From: an uncultured Granulosicoccaceae bacterium
GTDB lineage: Bacteria > Pseudomonadota > Gammaproteobacteria > Granulosicoccales > Granulosicoccaceae
Assembly: GCA_937951345.1 (NCBI GenBank)
Contig: CALFCF010000017.1
Location: 1 to 64,000, forward strand
Reading direction: 5' to 3'
Length of the DNA stretch: 64,000 bases
The translations under genes were made by a program, and so were the position numbers. Shown piece after piece: positions 238-51,205 of the stretch. Within the stretch, counting starts at the first letter, position 1. Each line of letters begins with the position of its first letter. The notes under the pieces were generated by a model. That model saw only the letters and a list, made by a program, of their open reading frames with translations, made no database searches and was not told where the DNA came from.

Positions 238-741
238 ATGAAAACTGTTGCTGTACTGAAAATTTCCGCTTTTGTCTTATTAAGTAGTTCTATTGCTGCA
301 TGTGCAAATTCCAAAAAAGATATTCCAGCACCGCAAGCACCTGTAGCTGCATTGCCAGCACCTAAACCGGCACCGCAGATTGTAGAAACGCCACGCGGCC
401 CAAGCTTGACTCTAAGTAATGTGTTATTCGACTTTGATGAATCCAGTCTACGCCCGGAAGCACAGGGTACGATTGAAAAAGCTGCCGAATACCTGGACGC
501 AAATCCTCAGCGGACGGCACTAATTGAGGGCCACACCGACCATACCGGGCCTGACGAGTACAATCGAGGTCTGTCGTTGTCGCGCTCAGAGTCCATTAAA
601 GATGCATTGGTTCAGCTTGGTATCGATGAAAACCGAATTACCACTAACGGACTGGGCGAAAGCCAGCCGATTGCTGACAACAGCGATAATGAAGGACGAC
701 AAGCCAATCGCCGAAGCGAGATAATCTTCCTGGCGAAGTAA
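238..741 (+). CDS. OmpA-family (Pal-like) outer membrane lipoprotein
   Basis: This is a peptidoglycan-associated lipoprotein-like protein of 167 residues that should tether the outer membrane to the wall. The N-terminus is a lipoprotein signal with lipobox SIAAC (lipidated Cys22). A Pro/Ala-rich linker follows, then a C-terminal OmpA domain from about residue 60 with the family signatures FDFDESSL, GHTDHTG, SLSRSESI and NRRSE. I chose ATG 238 because an upstream TTG at 229 would add only MYY ahead of a normal signal peptide. No tol genes adjoin it, so it is more likely a stand-alone OmpA-domain lipoprotein than the tol-pal Pal. Domain assignment is firm; the specific role is inferred. Confidence 0.88.
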   Translation: MKTVAVLKISAFVLLSSSIAACANSKKDIPAPQAPVAALPAPKPAPQIVETPRGPSLTLSNVLFDFDESSLRPEAQGTIEKAAEYLDANPQRTALIEGHTDHTGPDEYNRGLSLSRSESIKDALVQLGIDENRITTNGLGESQPIADNSDNEGRQANRRSEIIFLAK

Positions 742-794
742 TAATACCCGTTAAAAATAAACGACTATCAGTCAGTTTATTTTCCTCTTAAATC

Positions 795-823
795 AAGAGC
801 AGTTGCATTCTGTAACTGCTCTT
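795..823. terminator. Inverted repeat after the OmpA-type gene
   Basis: A perfect 10-bp stem (AAGAGCAGTT / AACTGCTCTT) with a 9-base loop lies about 55 bp past the stop codon. There is no clear T-run after it, so it may be a weak or factor-assisted terminator between this gene and the convergent acyl-CoA dehydrogenase gene. Confidence 0.4.
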
Positions 824-937
824 GACCTATCACCAAAAAACTGAAGCAGTGTGAGAGATCCCGGGTATGTTTTTGCCTAAAAACCCCCATAACCCGGTAC
901 AGCGAAACGATTATTTGACGCCCCTTGCCTTACACAC

Positions 938-2161
938 TTATTCTTCGGTGTATCGCTTGATAATCATTTTACCCAGCGCCATTTGATGAACCTGATCAGG
1001 CCCGTCCGCCTGTCGACACCAGCGTGCATAGTTAAAACCTTCCGCCATGCAGTAATCTTCTGTCAGACCACCTGCGCCATGAATCTGCATACAGCGATCA
1101 ATCAGGTTCTGAATCATAATGGGCACAGTGGTTTTACTGGCTGCGATTAAATCCATTGCGCCTTTTGGGCCTACTTCGTCCATTTTTTTACAGGTTTTCA
1201 TCACCAGCAATCGCGCCATCTCAAGCTCGGAATAGCATTTGGAAATATCTTCTCGAACGCTTTGGTGGCTACTCAGCGTACGGCCGAAAGTCGAGCGCGA
1301 TACTGTACGTTTACAGGTGATTTCTAGCGAACGCTGCCCAATACCGATAAGGCGCATACAATGATGAATACGGCCCGGTCCAAGGCGGCCCTGAGCAATT
1401 TCGAACCCTCGTCCCTCACCCAGTAGAACATTGCTCAGCGGAACACGCACGTTGTCGAAATGCACCTCTGCATGCCCCTGAGGCGCATCATCGTAGCCGA
1501 GCGTTGTTAATGGACGAACCAATTCAACGCCCGGTGTGCTTTTAGGCACAAGTACCTGTGTCTGCTGTTTGTGCCGATCAGCGTTGTCAGGGTCGGATTT
1601 ACCCATCACAATGAATATCGTCGTGCGCTCATACATGGCGTTAGTGATAAACCATTTACGGCCATTGAGCACCCAATGATCGCCGTCTTGAACAATACTG
1701 AGCTCCACATTGGTAGCATCCGAGCTTGCAACCTGGGGTTCTGTCATACAATAACTTGATCGAATTTCGCCGTTAAGTAACGGCGTAAGCCATTGTTCCT
1801 GTTGCTCAGCGTTGCCGTACTTCATAAACACTTCCATATTGCCAGTGTCAGGAGCACTGCAGTTGAACACTTCCGGCGCCCACAGCACACGCCCCATGGC
1901 TTCCGCAAGCGGGGCGTATTCAAAATTGCTTAACCCATCGTGATCAACAAATTCAGCAAGGTCCGGTGGAACAAAGAGGTTCCAGAGGCCGGCTTGCCTT
2001 GCCTTTTCCTTGAGCTCGTCTATCAGCGCAAGAGGAGCCCATCGATTTTCCACATGATGCAAATGCTCTGCGTAGGCTGTTTCATTGGGGTAGATGTGTT
2101 CATCCATGAAGCTCTGCAACTGCGCTTGCAGTTGTAGAGATTTCTCACTGAATTCAAGCAC
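938..2161 (-). CDS. Acyl-CoA dehydrogenase, ACAD10/11-like
   Basis: This is an FAD-dependent acyl-CoA dehydrogenase of about 407 residues, expected to introduce the alpha-beta double bond in acyl-CoA beta-oxidation. The middle domain shows the family signature YCMTEPQVASSDATN and the core RKWFITNA. The C-terminal helical domain has RSTFGRTLSSHQ and IHGAGGLTEDY, typical of the ACAD10/11 branch. The frame stays open upstream to a TTG at 2236. I prefer GTG 2161 because it is preceded by GGAG at 7-nt spacing and begins VLEFSEKS, as acyl-CoA dehydrogenases usually do. The substrate chain length cannot be read from sequence. The gene stands alone, convergent with the OmpA-type gene. Confidence 0.88.
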   Translation of the reverse strand: MLEFSEKSLQLQAQLQSFMDEHIYPNETAYAEHLHHVENRWAPLALIDELKEKARQAGLWNLFVPPDLAEFVDHDGLSNFEYAPLAEAMGRVLWAPEVFNCSAPDTGNMEVFMKYGNAEQQEQWLTPLLNGEIRSSYCMTEPQVASSDATNVELSIVQDGDHWVLNGRKWFITNAMYERTTIFIVMGKSDPDNADRHKQQTQVLVPKSTPGVELVRPLTTLGYDDAPQGHAEVHFDNVRVPLSNVLLGEGRGFEIAQGRLGPGRIHHCMRLIGIGQRSLEITCKRTVSRSTFGRTLSSHQSVREDISKCYSELEMARLLVMKTCKKMDEVGPKGAMDLIAASKTTVPIMIQNLIDRCMQIHGAGGLTEDYCMAEGFNYARWCRQADGPDQVHQMALGKMIIKRYTEE

Positions 2162-2723
2162 TGAAGGACTCCGGGTAGATTCAGGTAACGGTTCGTTGCA
2201 CCAGTATAGAAAGATGAACGAGATCACTCCAGTCAATTATTACGATGCATGTCTATTTCCTCAGTAAACAGCATGTGGTGAAAGGTGTAGCGATATTTAA
2301 CGATGGGCGGTGTATACGCGAAACGTCTAAAGATGCTTTATGAGCCCAGGCTAGCAAAATAGCAGCGGATACTTAAAGATCGGCTAGAGGCTGGTCAGCG
2401 GCAAAACCTAGTCACCCGCTGCGTCTGTGGAGTGACAAGTTCACTGTAGAGGCTCTGGAGCACCAGCGCGTGGCACAGACTCAGCATGGAACCGAGGTAA
2501 ACGGTTCGTGAATGCAAATGACCGACAAGTATTTGGAGCCCCCGTTATTTGGGTAGAACTATGAAGCGACAGTGCGAATCAATACACTGATGTTCGAGCC
2601 CGCAAGAATATCAATTGTCTGAACAGTACTAGTATCCCACCGTGGGGTAAAGGTAGGCTCAAATAAGCAGCCTCAGGTTGAAAGCCGAAATCTACCCAAC
2701 GCATGACGCATTTTCCGAACACA
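2162..2723. other. Intergenic region, no gene seen
   Basis: About 560 bp lie between the acyl-CoA dehydrogenase start and the terminator of the giant repeat gene. I see no convincing coding frame, RNA or repeat here. Open frames entering from the giant gene's antisense strand are coding shadows. The upstream part must hold the dehydrogenase promoter. Confidence 0.5.
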
Positions 2724-2751
2724 AAAAACGCCGGCTCATACCGGCGTTTTT
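2724..2751 (-). terminator. Rho-independent terminator of the giant repeat gene
   Basis: A perfect 11-bp stem (AAAAACGCCGG / CCGGCGTTTTT) with a 6-base loop lies 25 bp past the stop codon of the giant gene. GC-rich pairing followed by a U-run in the transcript makes it a strong intrinsic terminator. By symmetry it could also act on the other strand. Confidence 0.9.
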
Positions 2752-2775
2752 CTGTTTAATTGCCTCAACCAGATA

Positions 2776-5700
2776 TCAGGTGGGCTGCGTTCGCAGTCGA
2801 TGCCGCCGTAGCAATCCAGCCAGTGCAAAAACTCCCAGTAGTGGCAGCATTGGGTCGATCGGCGAGCGTTCGGTATTGTGTATCGGCGGTACAATTGCAC
2901 AACCGCTTCCTGCAAGACCTGTACGGACACTACCAAGTGACGGGACCTCCAGCACATCAGATACACCGTTTCCATCAATATCCGGTAGTGCCGCAGCGAT
3001 AAGCGGTTCGTCTGCCCGGCCGTCGCCATCAACATCAATTCCACCGGCCTCAATTACATCCGACACACCATCACCGTCACTGTCCAGATCGAGATGATTG
3101 GGTACACCGTCACCATCCAGATCACTGACCATAGCCGGGATAACAGCGAAAGCATCATCAAAACCATCACCATCCACGTCGCTGAATCCGTCCACCATGC
3201 CATCGTTGTCAGCATCCGTAGCGCCGGTTTCAAACAAGTCGCTTAGACCATCACCATCAGAATCCAATGCTATAGCATCCAGCACACCATTCCCGTCCGT
3301 GTCGATCGGTGCCGTAGGTGACGCAGCATAGCCGTCATCAACCCCGTCACCGTTGGTATCAACGAAGTCGTCAAACCTGCCATCATTGTCACTATCAGCA
3401 TCAGGCCCGAGACCCTCATAGGAATCTGACAGTCCATCATTGTCACTATCAAGGTCTCTGAAATCTGCAAGTCCGTCAACATCAGTGTTGCGCGGAGCAC
3501 CACCAGCACCCTGGACCAAGCCATTCTGATCAACACCTGAAACCAACAGTGACGATTCATCATTAAGCACAACCGGCACGTCTATGCGACCATCAAGATT
3601 CTCATCTCGATGATCAGACTCGATCGTGTCAAGCAAACCATCATTGTCGCTGTCAAGATCCCGGTAATCGTGTATACCGTCTCCATCAATATCTATCAGC
3701 GAATAGTTTTCAATACCTGACTCGGGTATTTCCTCAACAAAATCGGCCATACCGTTCGCACCGAATTCAAACGATGGATCTATAACGCCGTCGAGATCAG
3801 CGTCCAGCAGCAATACACCTAACATGCCTAGACGCACTTCGATGATGTCAAAGATTCCGTCGTTATCCACATCGAGATCGCGGAAATCCCTTACACCATC
3901 ACCATCGGAATCGAGATTGCCCTCAGTCAGATCACTGATACCGTCGTTATCCGCATCAATATCAATGTAGTCAAACGTCGCGTCGTTGTCCCTGTCTGCC
4001 GGAAACTGGCCTTCAAACTCCGCCTCGATAGCATCACTGACACCATCGTTATCGGAATCAAGATCCTGAAAATCAGGCGTACCATCACCGTCAGTATCCA
4101 CAGTACCTTCAATTGCATCGCTCAACCCATCACCATCGGCATCTGACGCCGGATCAATGTAGTCGGCAACTCCGTCGCCATCAGCGTCCGCGACACCTTC
4201 AGTACTGTCAGCAATACCATCGTTGTCTGAATCCGTGTCAACGTAGTTCGGTGCACCGTCAGCATCTGTATCTACAGGTGTAGCGCTATTGTCACCGAGT
4301 TCGACTGCATCAGGTATACCGTCATCGTCTGAATCATCATCCAGGAAGTCGGGGGTGCCATCTGCATCGGTATCAACTGGATTGGTTGGGTCATCGCCTG
4401 CCTCTAGCGCATCGGCAATACCATCACCATCCGAATCCGTGTCGAGGTAGTTTGGTGTACCGTCACTGTTGGAATCTGCAACACCTTCCAGTTCGTCCGG
4501 AATACCATCTCCATCTGAATCGCTATCAAGTGTATCCGCGATACCATCATTATCAGTATCAGCTTGGCCTTCAACAGCATCCGGGATTCCGTCATTATCG
4601 GAATCTACATCGAGCGCATCCGGCGTACCGTCACCGTCTGTGTCGGTGACACCTTCAGTCGCATCGGGAATTCCATCACCATCTGCGTCAGTATCAAGCG
4701 CATCCGGTACCGAGTCACCATCAGTATCAGCAACACCTTCAACTGCATCGTCGATCCCGTCGTTATCGGAATCCTCGTCCAGATAATCGGCTATTCCATC
4801 AGCGTCTGTGTCAACCCCACCCTCGATTGCATCCGGTATACCGTCAGCATCTGAATCGTCGTCCAGATAATCCGGTGTGCTGTCGGCATCGGTATCAACA
4901 GAGCCTTCCACCGCGTCTTCGATACCATCACCATCTGAATCATCATCGAGAAAATCCGGTGTGTTGTCAGCATCGCTATCAACAGATCCCTCTACCAAAT
5001 CTGATATGCCGTCACCGTCGGCATCATCATCGAGAAAATCCGCGACACCATCGGCGTCGGTATCCATGGCCGTTATCGCATCATCTGTACCGTCGCCATC
5101 AGCATCCGTACCACCGGTTACATCCACATCAAAGGTATCGTCAATACCATCCAGGTCACTATCCACACCACTGACTGGTGCTTCGACACTATCAGGAATG
5201 TTGTCATTATCGGCATCGACATCCAGGTAATCCGGAGATCCGTCTGCATCGGTATCAGGTGTTGCGATAGCATCATCAACTCCATCACCGTTGTCATCCG
5301 TGCCGCCAGTGACATCAACATCATAACTATCATCAATACCGTCACCATCAGTGTCTTCGCCACTCGACGGTGCTTCGATGCTATCCGGAATACCGTCATT
5401 GTCGGAATCCGGATCCTGCCAGTCAGCAATACCGTCGTTATCGGCATCTGTGTTGTTTGGCGCGCCGGACGCTTCGACTGCGTCTGGGGTACCGTCATTA
5501 TCAGAATCAGTATCCTGGAAATCTGGCACACTATCGCCATCGGTATCAGTAACAGCTATCAGAGTGGTATCGTCTGAACCATCACCATCTGCGTCTGTAA
5601 AATCATCTACAGTACCGTCATTGTCTACATCCGGCAGACCCGCTTCGACTATGTCGTTGATGCCATCATTATCTGAATCCGGATCAAGGTAATCCGGCAG

Positions 5701-8700
5701 AGCGTCGGCATCGGTATCAAGGACAACTGCGTTATCGTCAACACCATCGCCATTGGAGTCGGGACCTCCTGTCGCATCGCTATCGTAGGCATCATCAATG
5801 CCGTCGCCATCAGTATCGACACCGGCAAGTTCTGATTCTTCAGCATCGGGAATACCATCATTTTCCGAATCAAGATCCAGCCAATCGGGTACACCGTCAC
5901 CATCGGTATCGACTGAACCCGGGGCTCCGCTGGCTTCCACTGCATCGGGTAAACCATCTCCGTCAGCATCCACATCCACTGCATCAGGGATACCATCACC
6001 GTCGGTATCCGGGTTGGGCGCTACTACTGAATCGCCGAGACCATCGCCGTCGATATCAACAAAGTCATCGAGCACGCCATCATCATCATTGTCAGGTAGA
6101 CCCGCTTCAACGATGTCTGGAATGCCATCATTGTCTGAATCAGGATCAAGGTAATTGGGTACACCGTCACCATCCGTATCTTCGATGCCCTCGACCACAT
6201 CCGGGATGCCATCGTTATCCGAATCGGCGTCAGCAAAATCAACCACGCCGTCACCGTCGGTATCTATCTCCGGTGAACCGACCGGTTCGTCGTGCAGACC
6301 ATTGCCATCAGCGTCGGTAAAGCCGTCAACCATTCCGTCACCGTCCGCGTCCGTACCACCTGATTCAATAATGTCAGATATACCGTCGTCATCTGAATCC
6401 AGATCCAGATAATCCGGCTCGCCATCACCATCGGTATCAATCGCACCTTCTGTCGCATCAGTGACACCATCACCATCAGAATCCAGATCAAGGTGATCAG
6501 CCACACCGTCATTATCAGTGTCCACGGTTCCAGCATTACCAGCAGCTTCTACAACATCGGGGATGCCATCGCCATCTGAATCATCATCAAGATAATCCGG
6601 CGCACCATCACCGTCACTGTCTACGTCACCTTCGACAGCATCCGCAATGCCATCATTATCCGAATCTCCATCAAGATAATCCGGCGTTGCGTCAGCGTCG
6701 CTGTCAACAGTGCTCTCGACATTATCCGGAATGCCATCATCATCCGAGTCAGCATCGAGATAATCCGGTGCGCCATCGCCGTCACTGTCTACATCACCTT
6801 CGGTTGCATCGGGGATTCCATCGCTATCTGAATCTTCATCGAGATAATCCGGCGCATTATCACCGTCACTGTCTACGTCACCTTCGACAGCATCCGCAAT
6901 GCCATCATTATCCGAATCTTCATCGAGATAATCCGGTGTAGCATCAGCGTCGCTGTCAACAGTGCTCTCAACATTATCCGGAATGCCATCATCATCCGAG
7001 TCACCATCAAGATAATCTGGTGTGCCATCGCCGTCACTGTCTACATCACCTTCGGTTGCATCCGGAATTCCATCGCTATCTGAATCTTCATCAAGATAAT
7101 CCGGTGCACCATCACTGTCGCTGTCAATGGCGCTCTCAACACTATCCGGGATACCGTCGTTATCCGAATCACTTTCGAGATAATCCGGAGCGCCATCGCC
7201 ATCACTGTCTATATCACCTTCGGTAGCATCCGGGATTCCATCGTTATCCGAATCTTCATCAACGTAGTCCGCTGCACCATCGGCATCAGTGTCAAGCGTA
7301 ATGACCGCATCATCTACACCGTCATCGTCAGCATCGTCACCACCGGTAACATCCACGTCGTAAAGGTCGTCAATACCATCACCATCTGTATCCACACCGC
7401 TGACCGATGCTTCAACACTGTCCGGGATACCATCGTTATCCGAATCTGTATCCTGCCAGTCGGCAACGCCGTTGCCATCTGTATCGATACTGCCTTCAAC
7501 AGCATCCGGAATACCGTCATTGTCTGCATCGTTCTCCTGGAAATCTGGTACACCATCACCATCCGTGTCAGTGACAGGTGCTGTAACCACATCATCTGAA
7601 CCGTCGCCATTCACATCACTAAAATTATCAACCAGGCCATCGGCATCGGTATCAGGCAAACCCGCTTCATAGATGTCGTTAATGCCGTCATTGTCGGAAT
7701 CCAGGTCGAGGTAATCAGGCGTGCCATCTCCATCTGTATCCAACGTGGTCGCTGTATCGTCAAGACCGTCGCCATCGATATCTTCACCGCCGGAGGCATC
7801 AGCATCATAAGCGTCATCGATACCATCACCGTCGCTGTCACTATCCGAGAGCAAGGATTCGAGATTGTCAGGAATGCCATCATTGTCTGAATCAAGATCA
7901 AGCCAATCAGCAATGCCATCGCCGTCGGTATCCGCAGAACCTTCGATTGCGTCAGGCAACCCATCGCCATCAGCGTCAACATCGAGTGCGTCAGGGGTGC
8001 CATCTGCGTCAGTATCCGGATACGGTGCTACCGTATTGTCAGCAAGACCGTCACCGTCGCTATCGGTAAATTCATCTACCAACCCATCGGCATCAACATC
8101 CGGCAATCCAGCTTCGTATATGTCATTGATACCGTCATTGTCAGAATCAAGATCCTGGTAATTTGGCACGCCGTCACCATCGGTATCTGCTAGTCCCGAC
8201 CCGTCAGCAGCCGCCTCAACGATATCCGGTATACCGTCGTTGTCAGAGTCAGCATCTGCAAAATCAACAACGCCGTCACCGTCTGTGTCTGTGTTCGGTG
8301 AGCCAACCGGTTCGTCATGCAAACCGTTGTTATCGGCATCGGTAAATTCGTCAACCGTGCCATCGCCATCTGCATCGTCACCACCTGATTCGAGAATGTC
8401 ATTAATGCCATCACTATCTGAATCCAGATCAACGTAGTCAGGTGCACCATCGCCATCAGAGTCAATCACAGAAGCCGCATCATCAACGCCGTCGCCGTTG
8501 GCATCAATGCCACCGGTAGCATCGACGTCAAAGCTATCGTCAATGCCGTCGCCGTCCGAATCATTACCCGAAACTGATGCTTCTTCAGCATCGATTAGTC
8601 CATCGTTATCAGAGTCGAGGTCGAGATAGTCCGGGATACCATCACCGTCCGTATCAACATTGCCTTCTAACGCATCCGGCAGACCGTCGTTGTCAGAATC

Positions 8701-11700
8701 TGTATCCAGATGATCAACCACGCCATCAACATCGGAGTCATTGTCGGGCAGTGGAATAAGTGCAACTGCGTCATCAACACCGTCACCATTCGCATCGACC
8801 AGCTCATCAATGACACCATCGTTATCTACATCGGAGCCACCGGCTTCAGTTGCATCGCTAATGCCGTCGTTATCTGAATCCACATCCAGATAGTCGGGTA
8901 AACCGTCGACATCGGAATCAATGGGAGTGATCGCATCATCGACACCATCGCCATCAGTGTCGATTCCACCGGTTTGATCAACATCAAACAAGTCATCTAT
9001 TCCATCTGCATCAGAGTCAGTACCGGAAATCGGCGATTCCTCTGCATCCGGCAGACCGTCGTTATCTGAATCGAGGTCCAGCCAATCGGCCAGTCCGTCA
9101 CCATCGGTATCAGGACTTCCCTCTAACGCGTCCGGAATGCCATCGGCATCAGCATCTATATCCTGAAAGTCCGGCGACCCGTCATTGTCAGTATCCGGGA
9201 CCGGTGCAAGAACACCATCAGCCGACCCATCGGTATCCGTATCAGTAAAGTCATCAACAACGCCGTCAGCATCCAGATCTGGCAGACCAGCTTCATAGAT
9301 ATCGTTGATGCCATCGTTGTCGGCGTCCAGATCAAGATAGTCCGGCGTTCCATCAGCGTCAGTATCGAGAGTCTGAATAGCGTCGTCTACGCCATTGCCA
9401 TCAGCATCTTCGCCTTCGGTCTGATCAACATCGAAATCATCGTCAATACCATCACCATCCGTATCAACACCTGATACCGGAGACTCCTGGTTATCGGGAA
9501 TGCCATCGTTGTCGGAATCAAGATCAAGCCAATTGGCGATACCGTCTGCGTCGGTATCGGCGCTGCCTTCAACAACATCCGGAATGCCATCGTTATCCGC
9601 GTCGACATCCAGTTGATCAGGTGTGCCATCGCCATCAGTATCGGGGATGATCGGGTTAACCCCGTCGGCCTGACCGTCACCATCATCGTCGACAAAGTTA
9701 TCGGTCGTGCCGTCTGCATCAGCGTCAGATAAACCGGCTTCATTGATATCATTGATGCCATCGTTATCGGAATCGAGATCAAGATAGTCCGGCGTACCGT
9801 CCGCATCGCTATCAAGTGCCGAACTGCTATCTGCCACACCATCGCTGTCGGTATCAAGCGCGTCAGGCAGCGAGTCAACATCAAATGCATCGTCAATACC
9901 GTCAGCGTCCGTGTCTACCCCTGAAACACCACCTTCGGTACTGTCTGACAATCCGTCATTATCCGAATCAAGATCAAGGTAATCCGGTACGCTGTCACCA
10001 TCACTGTCACCATTACCTGCCGTACCGACTGCCTCTATCGCATCGGGTATGCGGTCCGCATCAGAATCAAGATCCAGTACATCGGGAATCGCATCCCCGT
10101 CTGTGTCCGGCCCGGATAAACCGGAACTACCGTCATGCAGACCGTTTCCATCCGTATCAGTGAAGTCGTCTACCTGAGCATCACCATCTGCATCACTGCC
10201 ACCGGATTCAATGACATCATTGATGCCATCGTTATCGCTATCCGAATCCAGATGATCAGGCGTACCGTCAGCATCTGTGTCGTCAAGCGGCAATGGATTT
10301 ACGGCGGCTGCATCATCCAGCCCGTCAGCATTGGCATCGATGAAATCATCCACAACACCGTTACCATCTGTGTCACTGCCACCGCCTTCGTTAGCATCGG
10401 TTATTCCGTCGTTGTCTGAATCAGCATCCAGGTGATCGGGTATGCCATCGTTATCGCTATCCGTTTGACCCGCAGGCGTACCCTTGCTGTCCGGGTCGAA
10501 GGCATCGTCAATACCATCGCCGTCACTGTCATTACCCGACAACGGTACGTTACTGCCTTCCTGCACATCCGGAATACCGTCATTGTCGCTATCAAGATCC
10601 AGGTGATCAGGTACCCCGTCAGCATCTGTGTCCTGTTGGACAACCGCATCATCAATACCATCAGTGTTAAGATCTTCACCGCCAGTCTGATCCGGATCAT
10701 AGGTATCATCGATACCGTCACCATCGCTATCCAGACCCGATGTCGCAGCTTCCTGACTGTCGGTTATACCGTCGTTGTCTGAATCAGTATCCTGAAAATC
10801 CGGGATGCCATCAGCGTCACGATCTTGCGGAAAGGTCGGATTATCCCCTGCCTCTATCGCGTCCGGGATGCCATCTGCGTCGGAATCAAGATCATACGCA
10901 TCTGAGGTGCCATCTCCATCGGTATCCACTCCAGCAGTACCCGGATGATTATCATGAAATCCGTCGCCATCAGAATCCGTGAATCCATCAATAATGCCAT
11001 CACCGTCCGCGTCGTTAAAACCGGATTCGACCAGATCAGGAATACCATCGTTGTCACTGTCGATATCATTCAGATCAAGGATGCCATCACCATCAGTGTC
11101 TCTATAGGTAGCACCAAAACGCCCAAATGCAGCAAACCCGACTGCACCAATAACATCTCTATCTTCAACAATAAAACGCACCGTGTTTGATCCTTGTTTC
11201 AACACACTCGGATCGAGTTCGGTGCGAATCATCTCGCCGGGGTCAAGGTACCAGGTAATGTTACTGGTGCTGCCGGGTTGTGTGATGTCCACGACACTAG
11301 TGCCATTGACAAGAATTTCAATTTTTGCAGCATCTGCGTATTCACGATGCTCCAGAAAAAAATCACCGTATCGAGCAGGATCATCGACGGTAAAGCTAGT
11401 TGTAAACTCCAGATGCAACAGGTCAGCTTCAAAATCGAGTATCTCGGGGATATCCACATTGGTGAAAAATTGCTGACCGTCATCAGGGTCAATACGTGAA
11501 GAACTGAAATCACCGAGTACATTGGAAGACGTGAATAGCGCGTCATTACCGATGAAATCGGGAAACGCATCATCAATGGTAAACGCAGATGTTGTATAGC
11601 CGGGAGGGTTGAATACAGCGGCACCGCCTTCCAGGGTGTGCAATGCGTCCGGGTAAACCACCAGATCAGTGGGTTGCTTAGCCGTCAGATTTCCGGCTAG

Positions 11701-12339
11701 CTGCATAAAACTATTAGCCGTATCTAATGTGAATGCGTTTATGCCAGTCGAAGACGTTGAATAGGAATTGATGTTTTCAGATTCAGTTGCTTCAGACGGC
11801 GTGAAATATACAGGTGTTCCACCTGCAACTTCATAAATATCCAGAATACCGTCATTATCTTGATCCAGATCCTCATTATCCGGCACACCATCATTGTCGC
11901 TATCAAGATTGACATCTTCGCCGTCGGGAATGCCGTCATTGTCGGTATCGGTGGGTTGTTCTACAGTGACACTTTTTTGCTTGCTCGGAATGCCGTCTGC
12001 ATCTGAATCCATGTCGAGATAGATAGAAACAGCATCATCGTCATGATCTAGCGTTGAAAGAACATCGTTAACACCAGTAGAGAACGTGCCACTATCAGTT
12101 GTAATACTCAGGAGATTGTGTGCGGAATCCGGTCTTGTTTTGGAAACCGAGCTACTACTCGATTGAAAGAAACCGCCATAGTCAGTACTGAGACCAGTGA
12201 TTGATTCGGCTGCATTTGCCACCGAAATAGCGACTGCCGAAAGCACACCAGAGAGCAATGTCAGGTGTATTTGCCTGCTGATTGAAGATATTTTTTTTGA
12301 ATATTTTCGCAGTTTTAGAACAATAAAATCCTTTTTCAT
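2776..12339 (-). CDS. Giant secreted Asp-rich calcium-binding (TSP3-like) repeat protein
   Basis: About 3,187 residues. ATG 12339 (MKKDF) is preferred over GTG 12393 because it gives a signal peptide: a long basic n-region, then LLSGVLSAVAISVANA. Residues about 97-170 hold the first DxDxDG repeats. About 171-413 is a non-repetitive, probably beta-sandwich domain. About 413-3116 is an almost unbroken array of thrombospondin type 3-like units such as DTDGDGIPDYLDLDSDND. The tail has a Cys in GSGCAIVPP, a DPMLPLLGVFALAGLL membrane segment and an Arg-rich end. By eye about a third of residues are Asp; the Cys near the C-terminus is the only one I noticed. Such repeats bind calcium in the TSP3 family, so a calcium-stiffened cell-surface rod, adhesin or matrix protein is inferred. 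The frame is intact throughout and the gene is monocistronic. Confidence 0.9.
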   Translation of the reverse strand: MKKDFIVLKLRKYSKKISSISRQIHLTLLSGVLSAVAISVANAAESITGLSTDYGGFFQSSSSSVSKTRPDSAHNLLSITTDSGTFSTGVNDVLSTLDHDDDAVSIYLDMDSDADGIPSKQKSVTVEQPTDTDNDGIPDGEDVNLDSDNDGVPDNEDLDQDNDGILDIYEVAGGTPVYFTPSEATESENINSYSTSSTGINAFTLDTANSFMQLAGNLTAKQPTDLVVYPDALHTLEGGAAVFNPPGYTTSAFTIDDAFPDFIGNDALFTSSNVLGDFSSSRIDPDDGQQFFTNVDIPEILDFEADLLHLEFTTSFTVDDPARYGDFFLEHREYADAAKIEILVNGTSVVDITQPGSTSNITWYLDPGEMIRTELDPSVLKQGSNTVRFIVEDRDVIGAVGFAAFGRFGATYRDTDGDGILDLNDIDSDNDGIPDLVESGFNDADGDGIIDGFTDSDGDGFHDNHPGTAGVDTDGDGTSDAYDLDSDADGIPDAIEAGDNPTFPQDRDADGIPDFQDTDSDNDGITDSQEAATSGLDSDGDGIDDTYDPDQTGGEDLNTDGIDDAVVQQDTDADGVPDHLDLDSDNDGIPDVQEGSNVPLSGNDSDGDGIDDAFDPDSKGTPAGQTDSDNDGIPDHLDADSDNDGITDANEGGGSDTDGNGVVDDFIDANADGLDDAAAVNPLPLDDTDADGTPDHLDSDSDNDGINDVIESGGSDADGDAQVDDFTDTDGNGLHDGSSGLSGPDTDGDAIPDVLDLDSDADRIPDAIEAVGTAGNGDSDGDSVPDYLDLDSDNDGLSDSTEGGVSGVDTDADGIDDAFDVDSLPDALDTDSDGVADSSSALDSDADGTPDYLDLDSDNDGINDINEAGLSDADADGTTDNFVDDDGDGQADGVNPIIPDTDGDGTPDQLDVDADNDGIPDVVEGSADTDADGIANWLDLDSDNDGIPDNQESPVSGVDTDGDGIDDDFDVDQTEGEDADGNGVDDAIQTLDTDADGTPDYLDLDADNDGINDIYEAGLPDLDADGVVDDFTDTDTDGSADGVLAPVPDTDNDGSPDFQDIDADADGIPDALEGSPDTDGDGLADWLDLDSDNDGLPDAEESPISGTDSDADGIDDLFDVDQTGGIDTDGDGVDDAITPIDSDVDGLPDYLDVDSDNDGISDATEAGGSDVDNDGVIDELVDANGDGVDDAVALIPLPDNDSDVDGVVDHLDTDSDNDGLPDALEGNVDTDGDGIPDYLDLDSDNDGLIDAEEASVSGNDSDGDGIDDSFDVDATGGIDANGDGVDDAASVIDSDGDGAPDYVDLDSDSDGINDILESGGDDADGDGTVDEFTDADNNGLHDEPVGSPNTDTDGDGVVDFADADSDNDGIPDIVEAAADGSGLADTDGDGVPNYQDLDSDNDGINDIYEAGLPDVDADGLVDEFTDSDGDGLADNTVAPYPDTDADGTPDALDVDADGDGLPDAIEGSADTDGDGIADWLDLDSDNDGIPDNLESLLSDSDSDGDGIDDAYDADASGGEDIDGDGLDDTATTLDTDGDGTPDYLDLDSDNDGINDIYEAGLPDTDADGLVDNFSDVNGDGSDDVVTAPVTDTDGDGVPDFQENDADNDGIPDAVEGSIDTDGNGVADWQDTDSDNDGIPDSVEASVSGVDTDGDGIDDLYDVDVTGGDDADDDGVDDAVITLDTDADGAADYVDEDSDNDGIPDATEGDIDSDGDGAPDYLESDSDNDGIPDSVESAIDSDSDGAPDYLDEDSDSDGIPDATEGDVDSDGDGTPDYLDGDSDDDGIPDNVESTVDSDADATPDYLDEDSDNDGIADAVEGDVDSDGDNAPDYLDEDSDSDGIPDATEGDVDSDGDGAPDYLDADSDDDGIPDNVESTVDSDADATPDYLDGDSDNDGIADAVEGDVDSDGDGAPDYLDDDSDGDGIPDVVEAAGNAGTVDTDNDGVADHLDLDSDGDGVTDATEGAIDTDGDGEPDYLDLDSDDDGISDIIESGGTDADGDGMVDGFTDADGNGLHDEPVGSPEIDTDGDGVVDFADADSDNDGIPDVVEGIEDTDGDGVPNYLDPDSDNDGIPDIVEAGLPDNDDDGVLDDFVDIDGDGLGDSVVAPNPDTDGDGIPDAVDVDADGDGLPDAVEASGAPGSVDTDGDGVPDWLDLDSENDGIPDAEESELAGVDTDGDGIDDAYDSDATGGPDSNGDGVDDNAVVLDTDADALPDYLDPDSDNDGINDIVEAGLPDVDNDGTVDDFTDADGDGSDDTTLIAVTDTDGDSVPDFQDTDSDNDGTPDAVEASGAPNNTDADNDGIADWQDPDSDNDGIPDSIEAPSSGEDTDGDGIDDSYDVDVTGGTDDNGDGVDDAIATPDTDADGSPDYLDVDADNDNIPDSVEAPVSGVDSDLDGIDDTFDVDVTGGTDADGDGTDDAITAMDTDADGVADFLDDDADGDGISDLVEGSVDSDADNTPDFLDDDSDGDGIEDAVEGSVDTDADSTPDYLDDDSDADGIPDAIEGGVDTDADGIADYLDEDSDNDGIDDAVEGVADTDGDSVPDALDTDADGDGIPDATEGVTDTDGDGTPDALDVDSDNDGIPDAVEGQADTDNDGIADTLDSDSDGDGIPDELEGVADSNSDGTPNYLDTDSDGDGIADALEAGDDPTNPVDTDADGTPDFLDDDSDDDGIPDAVELGDNSATPVDTDADGAPNYVDTDSDNDGIADSTEGVADADGDGVADYIDPASDADGDGLSDAIEGTVDTDGDGTPDFQDLDSDNDGVSDAIEAEFEGQFPADRDNDATFDYIDIDADNDGISDLTEGNLDSDGDGVRDFRDLDVDNDGIFDIIEVRLGMLGVLLLDADLDGVIDPSFEFGANGMADFVEEIPESGIENYSLIDIDGDGIHDYRDLDSDNDGLLDTIESDHRDENLDGRIDVPVVLNDESSLLVSGVDQNGLVQGAGGAPRNTDVDGLADFRDLDSDNDGLSDSYEGLGPDADSDNDGRFDDFVDTNGDGVDDGYAASPTAPIDTDGNGVLDAIALDSDGDGLSDLFETGATDADNDGMVDGFSDVDGDGFDDAFAVIPAMVSDLDGDGVPNHLDLDSDGDGVSDVIEAGGIDVDGDGRADEPLIAAALPDIDGNGVSDVLEVPSLGSVRTGLAGSGCAIVPPIHNTERSPIDPMLPLLGVFALAGLLRRHRLRTQPT
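6601..7104. repeat. Tandem near-identical 252-bp duplication inside the giant gene
   Basis: Bases about 6601-6852 and 6853-7104 are two copies, each made of three 84-bp (28-residue) units, that differ at only a small fraction of positions by eye. Elsewhere in the gene the repeats are much more diverged at DNA level. This points to a recent in-frame tandem duplication by slippage or unequal recombination. Confidence 0.75.
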
Positions 12340-13089
12340 CGCTGAATCCATATCAGTTAAAACCGTGTATGGCGAACCGTATTCGCCATGCACATCATGT
12401 GCTTAGTTCGTTTCAAACAACAATCTCTCGACAACTGAAAGAAACTATTGCATGTTGCTTAAGTAAGATTCCGGAAAACAGATGTATAGACTGTTAACCA
12501 GAATGGTATGATTCAGGAATAGACAAATGAGGGATTTCGGAGTGGCAACGGCACCTTGACTTTTATTCGCAAGGTTAATGTTGATAACACGGTGAAATCA
12601 TCCATGATCAATACTATAGATCGTAGCTTCCCTGTATCTACCTGATGTTTATGGTCACAGGTTGACCAACTATGCTTGCAAAAAAACGCAAGCACAATAA
12701 ACTCAAACTTATCTAAACATCCTGATTAGCGGCGATCAAAACCTAAAAAACAGCCTCGCAACAATGAGTGGATCACAGTTTGACTTTATTTTAGATGCAA
12801 ATACCAGCACCTCTACAAACTGAATGGCAACAGCCTGTGTCTGTTGGATGCTAATTTCGCCCACCGCAGACGTTGGATCGAACACCCTATCCTGTGCCTA
12901 TCACAGGTCTTTTATATCGATGTGCCGGTTATCCGTTATGCACAATCACAATCATGTCGTGCTGCACTAAATTTTCGTTGTCAAAATAGGGCCTTAACCC
13001 CCTTGCAAAGAATAAGAGACTGTCCAACCAAATAGGTTGCTGTAACATTCGTCAAAGAACTATTTCAATCACCACCGAAGGACATTCCC
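12340..13089. other. Intergenic region, promoters only
   Basis: About 750 bp separate the divergent giant-repeat and deacetylase genes. The stretch is fairly AT-rich. Short open frames in it (for example 12844-13035 on + and 12513-12695 on -) have no recognisable product or good ribosome site. It should contain both promoters, but I could not define them. Confidence 0.5.
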
Positions 13090-13944
13090 ATGTTTCTACA
13101 CCCGATGACGTGGCCAGACAACACAAAGTGCGCAGCTGCAATTACCTTCGATATAGACGCAGATTCACTGATTCGTGATGCGAGGCGCGAAGACGGAGAA
13201 CTGCGTCTGCAGGCCATATCAATGGGGCAATATGGTCCTACGGTGGGCGTGCCACGGATTCTGGAATCTTATAAACGTTATGGCTTAACTCAAACTTTCT
13301 TCATGCCGGGTTGGGTTATGGAAAATTACCCCGGCACTGTTGAGTCGATATTAAAGGCCGGCCACGAGATCGGTCATCATTCATGGCGCCATGAAGACCC
13401 GATGAACCACAGCGATGAGGTAGAGGCAGAGCTGTTCGGCAAAGCAATGGATGTTCATATGAAGCTCACCGGACGCCACCCGCGCGGTTATCGTGCACCC
13501 GTCTACAGCATCACTCCCGCTATTCTAAAAAGACTGATCGAACACAACTTTCTGTACGACAGTTCAATGATGGCTGATGATCTACCCTATCTTGTTGAAA
13601 CCAGCGTGGGTAATCTGATTGAACTGCCCCCACACTGGGGCACTGATGACTGGCCACCTTTTGCACACTTTGCAGAAATCAATTACATGATGCCGGTGCG
13701 CGGACCATCAGCCGGTATTGCACCTTTTTTTGAAGAGTTTAATGCAATGTATGAAGCCGGAGGATTCTGGATGCCGGTGCTGCACCCTTTTCTGACCGGT
13801 CGGCTTGCGCGCTGGCGCGAGGTAGAACGTTATCTCGAACCGATACTGGAAAAAGGCGATGTTTGGTTTGCGACGCTTGAAGACATCGCCAACCACGCGC
13901 TGAAAGACATCGACACTATGCGGCGGGTTGAGATTCAGGTCTAG
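13090..13944 (+). CDS. Polysaccharide (peptidoglycan-type) deacetylase, CE4 / NodB family
   Basis: This is a 284-residue carbohydrate esterase family 4 protein that should remove N-acetyl or related acyl groups from a sugar polymer, using a metal ion. Motif 1 is TFDIDAD (residues 19-25, catalytic and metal Asp). Motif 2 is HSWRH (H97 and H101, metal ligands), and RGYRAP matches motif 3. Overall it resembles the cytoplasmic HpPgdA-like subgroup, which also includes amidase-like enzymes. No signal peptide is visible, so a non-polymer or cytoplasmic substrate is possible. The start is supported by GAAGGA seven bases upstream. It stands alone between the giant gene and tRNA-Leu. Confidence 0.85.
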   Translation: MFLHPMTWPDNTKCAAAITFDIDADSLIRDARREDGELRLQAISMGQYGPTVGVPRILESYKRYGLTQTFFMPGWVMENYPGTVESILKAGHEIGHHSWRHEDPMNHSDEVEAELFGKAMDVHMKLTGRHPRGYRAPVYSITPAILKRLIEHNFLYDSSMMADDLPYLVETSVGNLIELPPHWGTDDWPPFAHFAEINYMMPVRGPSAGIAPFFEEFNAMYEAGGFWMPVLHPFLTGRLARWREVERYLEPILEKGDVWFATLEDIANHALKDIDTMRRVEIQV

Positions 13945-51103: not shown

Positions 51104-51205
51104 TTCGCACCAGCTACATCCCGGCACCCGATTTCACTGCCGCCGCTGCTCCCTTCCGGGCCTGACGGGGTTAGCAGATGATCGTCGCGGGAGAGCCGAT
51201 GCGAA
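51104..51205 (-). ncRNA. ffs: Signal recognition particle 4.5S RNA
   Basis: The minus-strand RNA has the SRP domain IV hairpin with the conserved core CAGGCCCGGAAGGGAGCAGC, and the distal helix pairs TCTCCCGCGACG with the GGTGCCGGGATGTAGCTGG side. Its ends TTCGCATC and GGTGCGAA close the terminal stem. A T-run (CTTTTTG) follows directly, so the terminal stem also serves as terminator. The place upstream of dnaX is conserved in many proteobacteria. The RNA works with Ffh in co-translational membrane targeting. Confidence 0.95.

Follow-up and report, generated by a model that had tools for sequence, protein, structure and literature searches.

TSP3 calcium loops have been seen chiefly in short linkers, and JDVT-CTERM is known as a system with one target. 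JDVT-CTERM/MrtJ (NF033191/NF033192) has been described as a two-gene pair with a single target that occurs sporadically in beta- and gammaproteobacteria (PMC11980579). Its myxobacterial counterpart is MYXO-CTERM/MrtX: MYXO-CTERM proteins are cut by MrtX, are proposed to be lipidated on Cys, and move outward by type II secretion (PMC11980579). In Myxococcus xanthus, TraB combines a barrel, TSP3 and OmpA in this order (PMC12045341), and MXAN_5598 carries an internal MYXO-CTERM followed by a barrel and OmpA in one frame, an arrangement called atypical (PMC11980579). The window analyzed here, 64,000 nucleotides of a contig from an uncultured Granulosicoccaceae bacterium, contains a giant gene whose product resembles the JDVT-CTERM/MrtJ system in its C-terminal GxGC signature, transmembrane helix and Arg cluster; a MrtJ above cut-off is encoded in the same genome, and several relatives score above the JDVT-CTERM cut-off. 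The likeness to TraA/TraB is that of a head-stalk-sorting signal protein accompanied by a barrel-TSP3-OmpA protein. In contrast, the TraA stalk is a Cys-rich repeat, whereas the stalk found here is a giant TSP3 array with a JDVT-type signal.

A sequence-only reading of this DNA had proposed a single intact giant gene, and the 3,187-aa frame without internal stop bears this out; the position range had been given without a strand, and the gene lies on the minus strand (Table 1). The frame is open from 12402. A chance origin is excluded, because the open frame runs for 3,208 codons and because ten-spacing words recur in it far above shuffled expectation. Exact DNA repeats within the gene reach at most 61 nt, and every 77-mer is unique, so that ordinary-length short reads could span every repeat. 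Since exact repeats are this short and synonymous sites are saturated between repeat copies, assembly collapse or recent expansion of the array is unlikely.

Table 1. Features of the giant gene and its 3' flank, in window coordinates
Feature	Position	Strand	Details
Giant gene, 3,187 aa	2776..12339	-	ATG start 12339, stop 2776
Signal peptide, residues 1-43	12211..12339	-	basic n-region, hydrophobic LTLLSGVLSAVAISVA; cleavage site ANA|A by inspection
First TSP3 loops, residues 131-173, preceding head	11821..11949	-	
Head domain, residues 174-420, 247 aa, non-repetitive	11080..11820	-	
TSP3 loop array, residues 414-3125	2965..11100	-	
Zone of higher-order repeats (10-loop super-repeat, ~149 aa)	7294..11100	-	loop-spacing analysis
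Simple double loops of 28 aa (13+15)	6442..7293	-	
C-terminal module, conserved, residues 2710-3140; contains loops and conserved insertions	2920..4212	-	
JDVT-CTERM-like sorting signal, residues 3134-3187	2779..2940	-	TGLAGSGCAI, DPMLPLLGVFALAGL transmembrane helix, RRHRLR
Hairpin resembling a terminator, with 11 pairs and runs of T on both strands	2724..2751	.	25 bp past stop codon

Counted without overlap, 178 DxDxDGxxD loops span residues 131 to 3120, and 138 of them are full 12-residue loops ending in D, E or N. Position 1 is D in 178/178, as the search pattern demands, position 9 is D in 172/178, and position 12 is D or E in 135/178; judged by sequence, these positions match the ligand positions of the 12-residue calcium loop. 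The array region covers 2,720 residues (about 406-3125), with 2,298 residues inside 13-residue units. Thus, TSP3-type calcium loops do form most of the protein, as had been claimed. The extreme acidity also stands, with a computed charge of about -955 at pH 7, while the estimate that about a third of residues are Asp was slightly high (27.7% of the whole protein and 30.5% of the array). The program pI of 4.05 is the lowest value that the calculating program returns.

A Pfam scan with the whole window protein gave zero matches, probably due to the HMMER composition correction, and fragments were run after this empty scan. The fragment of residues 1600-1850 was the best match to PF02412 (TSP_3; 37.9 bits, gathering cut-off 25), and PF18884 (TSP3_bac) reached 23.8 bits on its best fragment, below its cut-off of 25. 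The HMM search of the translation that the sequence-only reading had suggested is therefore positive for fragments with PF02412. A PF02412 search of the genome itself did not list the window gene among its matches, so the number of arrays of this kind comes out too low in family searches. Profiles built on the head-plus-array part and on the C-terminal part match the structures of COMP, thrombospondin-1 and -2 and bacterial OmpA (3fby, COMP; 5wtl; 1ux6; 1yo8; E 1e-8 to 1e-3). By fragment score and by these profile matches, the loops are TSP3-type. Thrombospondins, COMP and the Capnocytophaga OmpA (5WTL) have the DxDxDGxxD loops in common with this protein, but their arrays are short in comparison with the roughly 178 loops here. 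The eukaryotic and solved Capnocytophaga repeats also contain intra-repeat disulphides, which the models do not require; inspection of the whole protein found no Cys in the window array, which thus lacks them. The myxobacterial cohesion and gliding proteins MtsC, MtsD and CglD (NCBIfam names) share TSP3 content, and the MtsC model is named as a MYXO-CTERM cohesion protein; the CglD model gave 48.4 bits on the whole window protein. However, the scores of these models are far below their curated cut-offs (350-800), and the likeness is one of repeat composition. Lanmodulin and calmodulin-like EF-hands were weak matches in the PDB searches. Lanthanide binding, which the lanmodulin match brought to mind, was set aside, as loop position 2 is S, T or A and not Pro as in lanmodulin.

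The loop spacing is non-random: 49 repeated ten-spacing words were observed versus 0 in 1,000 shuffles. The super-repeat has spacings of 13-16-12-16-13-15-13-18-19-14 residues, and this word is exact at residues 843, 992, 1385 and 1534, with slightly changed variants at 414, 687 and 1141 and, further downstream, at 2054 and 2208. The protein sequences of the super-repeat copies are 68-72% identical; pN is 0.18-0.22, and pS, at 0.80-0.86, is saturated. The array is old, and purifying selection has kept its protein sequence.

The description "almost pure" repeat protein has to be modified, since a signal peptide, a 247-aa head, a conserved C-terminal module and a sorting signal are also present. 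The hydrophobic LTLLSGVLSAVAISVA of the signal peptide is the most hydrophobic stretch of the window protein, and the last few residues of the head form the first loop of the array. Orthologues of the head, 66-70% identical, occur in three other uncultured Granulosicoccaceae MAGs (pS 0.84-0.86 against pN 0.22); at the sensitivity used, the genome collection gave no match beyond these three, and the family models gave none to the head. An AlphaFold2 model of the head from four sequences had a pLDDT of 43.7 and was left out of the fold search for this reason. The loop-spacing order differs between the head orthologues, while the head itself is conserved; the contigs of these orthologues end within the array. 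No synteny was found with the three orthologues, the genes around the window gene not being common to them, and the neighbour genes in the window gave no functional hint.

Aligned with the C-terminal parts of 23 other proteins of the family, the final 480 aa of the ORF show 33-58% identity. The heads differ among family proteins whose C-terminal modules are homologous, suggesting an adhesin-like modularity. The structure prediction for the C-terminal module was confident for about the first 200 residues (pLDDT about 80-93), and its fold search returned TSP3 proteins only (best E 6e-4) with low global TM-scores. The scores are low because the prediction does not fix the course of the chain, and we therefore make no claim about stalk shape and length.

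The sole Cys of the 3,187 residues, Cys3147 (2899-2901), lies within TGLAGSGCAI, and the helix of the sorting signal is at residues 3164-3183 in the predicted model. NF033191 (JDVT-CTERM) gave 25.5 bits on the window tail, 1.5 under the curated cut-off of 27; because of this score, we describe the protein as JDVT-CTERM-like by sequence and do not file it as a member. Six relatives, namely five giants and one 2,260-aa protein, were scored on the same model. Four of the giants and the 2,260-aa protein passed (45.6, 32, 30.7, 28.5 and 28 bits for the five), and the 5,493-aa giant gave 23.6 bits. The genome encodes MrtJ as a single CPBP protease (85-91 bits with NF033192, cut-off 75), which carries EExxxR and HxxxN motifs and an insertion of ~30 residues between the two halves matching the model. 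Its gene is on a different contig from the giant gene and adjoins a barrel/OmpA gene, so that the giant target does not stand beside mrtJ. A type II secretin is also encoded (595 bits). Across the family, mrtJ is present in 44/48 genomes and in 28/28 of the good ones. Another protein of the window genome, 793 aa long (G000:C83, L112:2196-4574), has a JDVT-like sorting signal but lacks TSP3 loops, so the signal is not confined to proteins with calcium arrays.

The family-wide counts rest on a sorting-signal model built from seven sequences. It matched 48/48 Granulosicoccaceae genomes, with up to 12 matches per genome. When 369 genomes were drawn evenly from the class and the threshold was tightened to E 1e-7, only 15 genomes from outside the family matched, nearly always once each, and none of the matching frames exceeded 1,816 aa. 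This differs from the described JDVT pair: here, a single MrtJ goes with dispersed matches, many of them giant, and mrtJ is paired with a barrel gene. Homologues of similar length, which the sequence-only reading had proposed to look for, were found in the family at up to 5,493 aa; giants of 3,869, 3,997, 5,309 and 5,493 aa carry 166 to 275 loops, and the 5,309-aa protein shares one 7.78-Mb single-contig genome of the family with a 3,569-aa relative. The statement that TSP3 repeats usually serve as short spacers thus fails within Granulosicoccaceae, where arrays of 146-275 loops recur. Four further giants with sorting signals (G043:C94, G004:C64, G008:C83 and G058:C155; 4,438 to over 6,400 aa) carry 15 to 84 TSP3 loops, comparatively few for proteins of this size, and their remainder resembles other extracellular repeats.

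We catalogued 44 frames with a sorting signal, these being the best-scoring and the largest of the fetched matches, several of them cut by contig or locus ends. Fifteen of the 44 run on in frame for 90 to 405 residues past the signal, a proportion that is not a frequency, as the frames were not sampled at random. All 15 then have another stretch that resembles a signal peptide and closes with a lipobox or an AxA-like site, and behind it the same barrel/OmpA protein (E of at most 1e-7), with the domains shown by Pfam in three of the 15. The example from the window genome, its second giant (G000:C72:30699-35885, L027:2700-7886; 1,729 aa), consists of a TSP3 array, an internal JDVT-like signal, a lipobox-like second signal peptide, a barrel, TSP3 and OmpA. 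The fusion called atypical in MXAN_5598 is recurrent here. A barrel/OmpA homologue also stands beside mrtJ in 11/11 loci, that is, in the window genome and in 10/10 others, in two of which the match covers the OmpA end of the barrel gene only. In the window genome, mrtJ and the barrel-TSP3-OmpA gene are on the same strand (L050:8823-10592, G000:C4). The partner barrel scored above cut-off with PF13505 (40 bits) and PF00691 (50.7 bits) and below it with TSP_3 (17.1). The TraB model NF033763 gave 54.6 and 105.4 bits on barrel proteins, with matches in the TSP3/OmpA part only. Because these scores are far below the cut-off of 700, the resemblance to TraB is a likeness of plan and not membership. 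The window protein itself is neither fused to nor adjoining a barrel.

We consider it reasonably probable that the window protein is a lipid-anchored, calcium-folded surface stalk with a head, probably for adhesion. The parts read directly from the sequence are the Sec-type signal peptide, the N-terminal head, the ~178 TSP3 loops, the C-terminal module and the Cys-helix-Arg sorting signal; export, lipidation, the part played by calcium and adhesion are inferred from homology. Surrounding calcium would fold the array into a long, stiff and highly acidic stalk holding the head off the cell, the stiffness and the calcium binding both being predicted from homology to TSP3 proteins. The head, or the array itself, would then bind a partner cell, matrix or surface, and the TraB-like barrel/OmpA protein encoded beside mrtJ would be a likely partner in the outer membrane and at the peptidoglycan. 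A surface stalk is supported by the sorting signal, MrtJ, the type II secretin and the position of the sole Cys inside the signal. Purifying selection on the super-repeats and the link to the barrel (11/11 loci, 15/15 frames) argue in the same direction, as do the published parallels of MYXO-CTERM/MrtX (PMC11980579) and TraA/TraB (PMC12045341). Against the stalk we count the tail score of 1.5 bits under cut-off, the head without family match or confident model, the absence of the disulphides of structurally known TSP3 arrays, and the uninformative neighbour genes. Among the roles that the sequence-only reading had offered, the surface rod or adhesin is the best supported, whereas ion sink and matrix fibre rank as rivals.

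One such rival takes the array as the function, a store of calcium or another metal or a mineral-nucleating matrix, with the head as a mere localiser. The 178 loops and the charge would give a very high ion capacity, loop order and number vary between head orthologues, as bulk binding would predict, and the weak lanmodulin and EF-hand matches point the same way. We nevertheless give it little credence, as the higher-order spacing words and a C-terminal module with specific non-loop insertions are conserved, different heads sit on the same type of stalk, and each chain has one sorting-signal anchor. A space-filling polymer, periplasmic or secreted, that forms a matrix fibre or hydrophilic brush and binds nothing specifically could likewise account for the extreme acidity, the repeat content and the variation of array length and order between orthologues; the conservation of the head, at 66-70% identity and with pN far below pS, leaves this very little chance. 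An assembly or annotation artefact, in the form of a collapsed or chimeric array or a pseudogene, is hardly credible. The source is a MAG of 115 contigs, and the contigs of all three head orthologues end inside their arrays, but exact repeats in the giant gene never exceed 61 nt, its stop, terminator and sorting signal are all intact, and giant relatives are present in the 7.78-Mb single-contig genome.

The barrel bears on another alternative, a TraAB-like contact machine in which the giant is the recognition half and the barrel the membrane half, acting in recognition or envelope fusion and not in plain adhesion. The barrel-TSP3-OmpA gene adjoining mrtJ in all 11 loci, the 15 frames in which a sorting signal is fused to a barrel, the TraB model matches of 54-105 bits and the same order of parts in M. 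xanthus MXAN_5598 (PMC11980579) favor such a machine. It is rather unlikely for the window protein, which is unfused and has no barrel gene next to it; in addition, the TraB scores are far below 700 and confined to the TSP3/OmpA part, and a TraA-like variable domain and Cys-rich stalk are absent. For the family as a whole, we tentatively suggest that Granulosicoccaceae may run an expanded TraAB-like system outside myxobacteria, in which one MrtJ would process many JDVT-CTERM giants that have stalks of calcium loops and interchangeable heads. In several cases the product would be a polyprotein, from which MrtJ and signal peptidase would release a stalk with a lipid anchor and a TraB-like barrel connecting this stalk to the peptidoglycan; the system would serve cell-cell contact or recognition. 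This is possible but doubtful.

Giant RTX/Bap adhesins (LapA, MpAFP and BapP) share with the window protein the giant size and the idea of a calcium-dependent extender. They have beta-sandwich extenders and type 1 secretion, in contrast to the Sec signal peptide, TSP3 loops and C-terminal lipid anchor predicted here. No GGxGxD nonapeptides were found in the window protein. RTX/type 1 secreted adhesins lack a Sec signal peptide and end in a type 1 secretion signal, whereas the window protein has a clear N-terminal signal peptide and a C-terminal sorting helix.

A head-bearing surface stalk of this kind would mean that one sorting protease serves several surface proteins throughout the family, including calcium-loop stalks of 1,500 to 5,500 residues, and that a recurring barrel partner accompanies them. 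A cultivable lineage would allow testing of whether internal sorting signals turn one gene into two surface proteins. The array may also provide a naturally occurring stalk that responds to calcium and contains no disulphides.

Near the giant gene, a small OmpA-family lipoprotein-like ORF lies at 229-741 of the window (+); between the two is an acyl-CoA dehydrogenase gene on the opposite strand. About 700 bp upstream of the giant gene (12400-13090) are without an annotated gene, and no promoter-like site above chance was found in this region. The Rfam scan of the window returned tRNA and SRP RNA only, the latter being a bacterial small SRP RNA at 51105-51201 (-).
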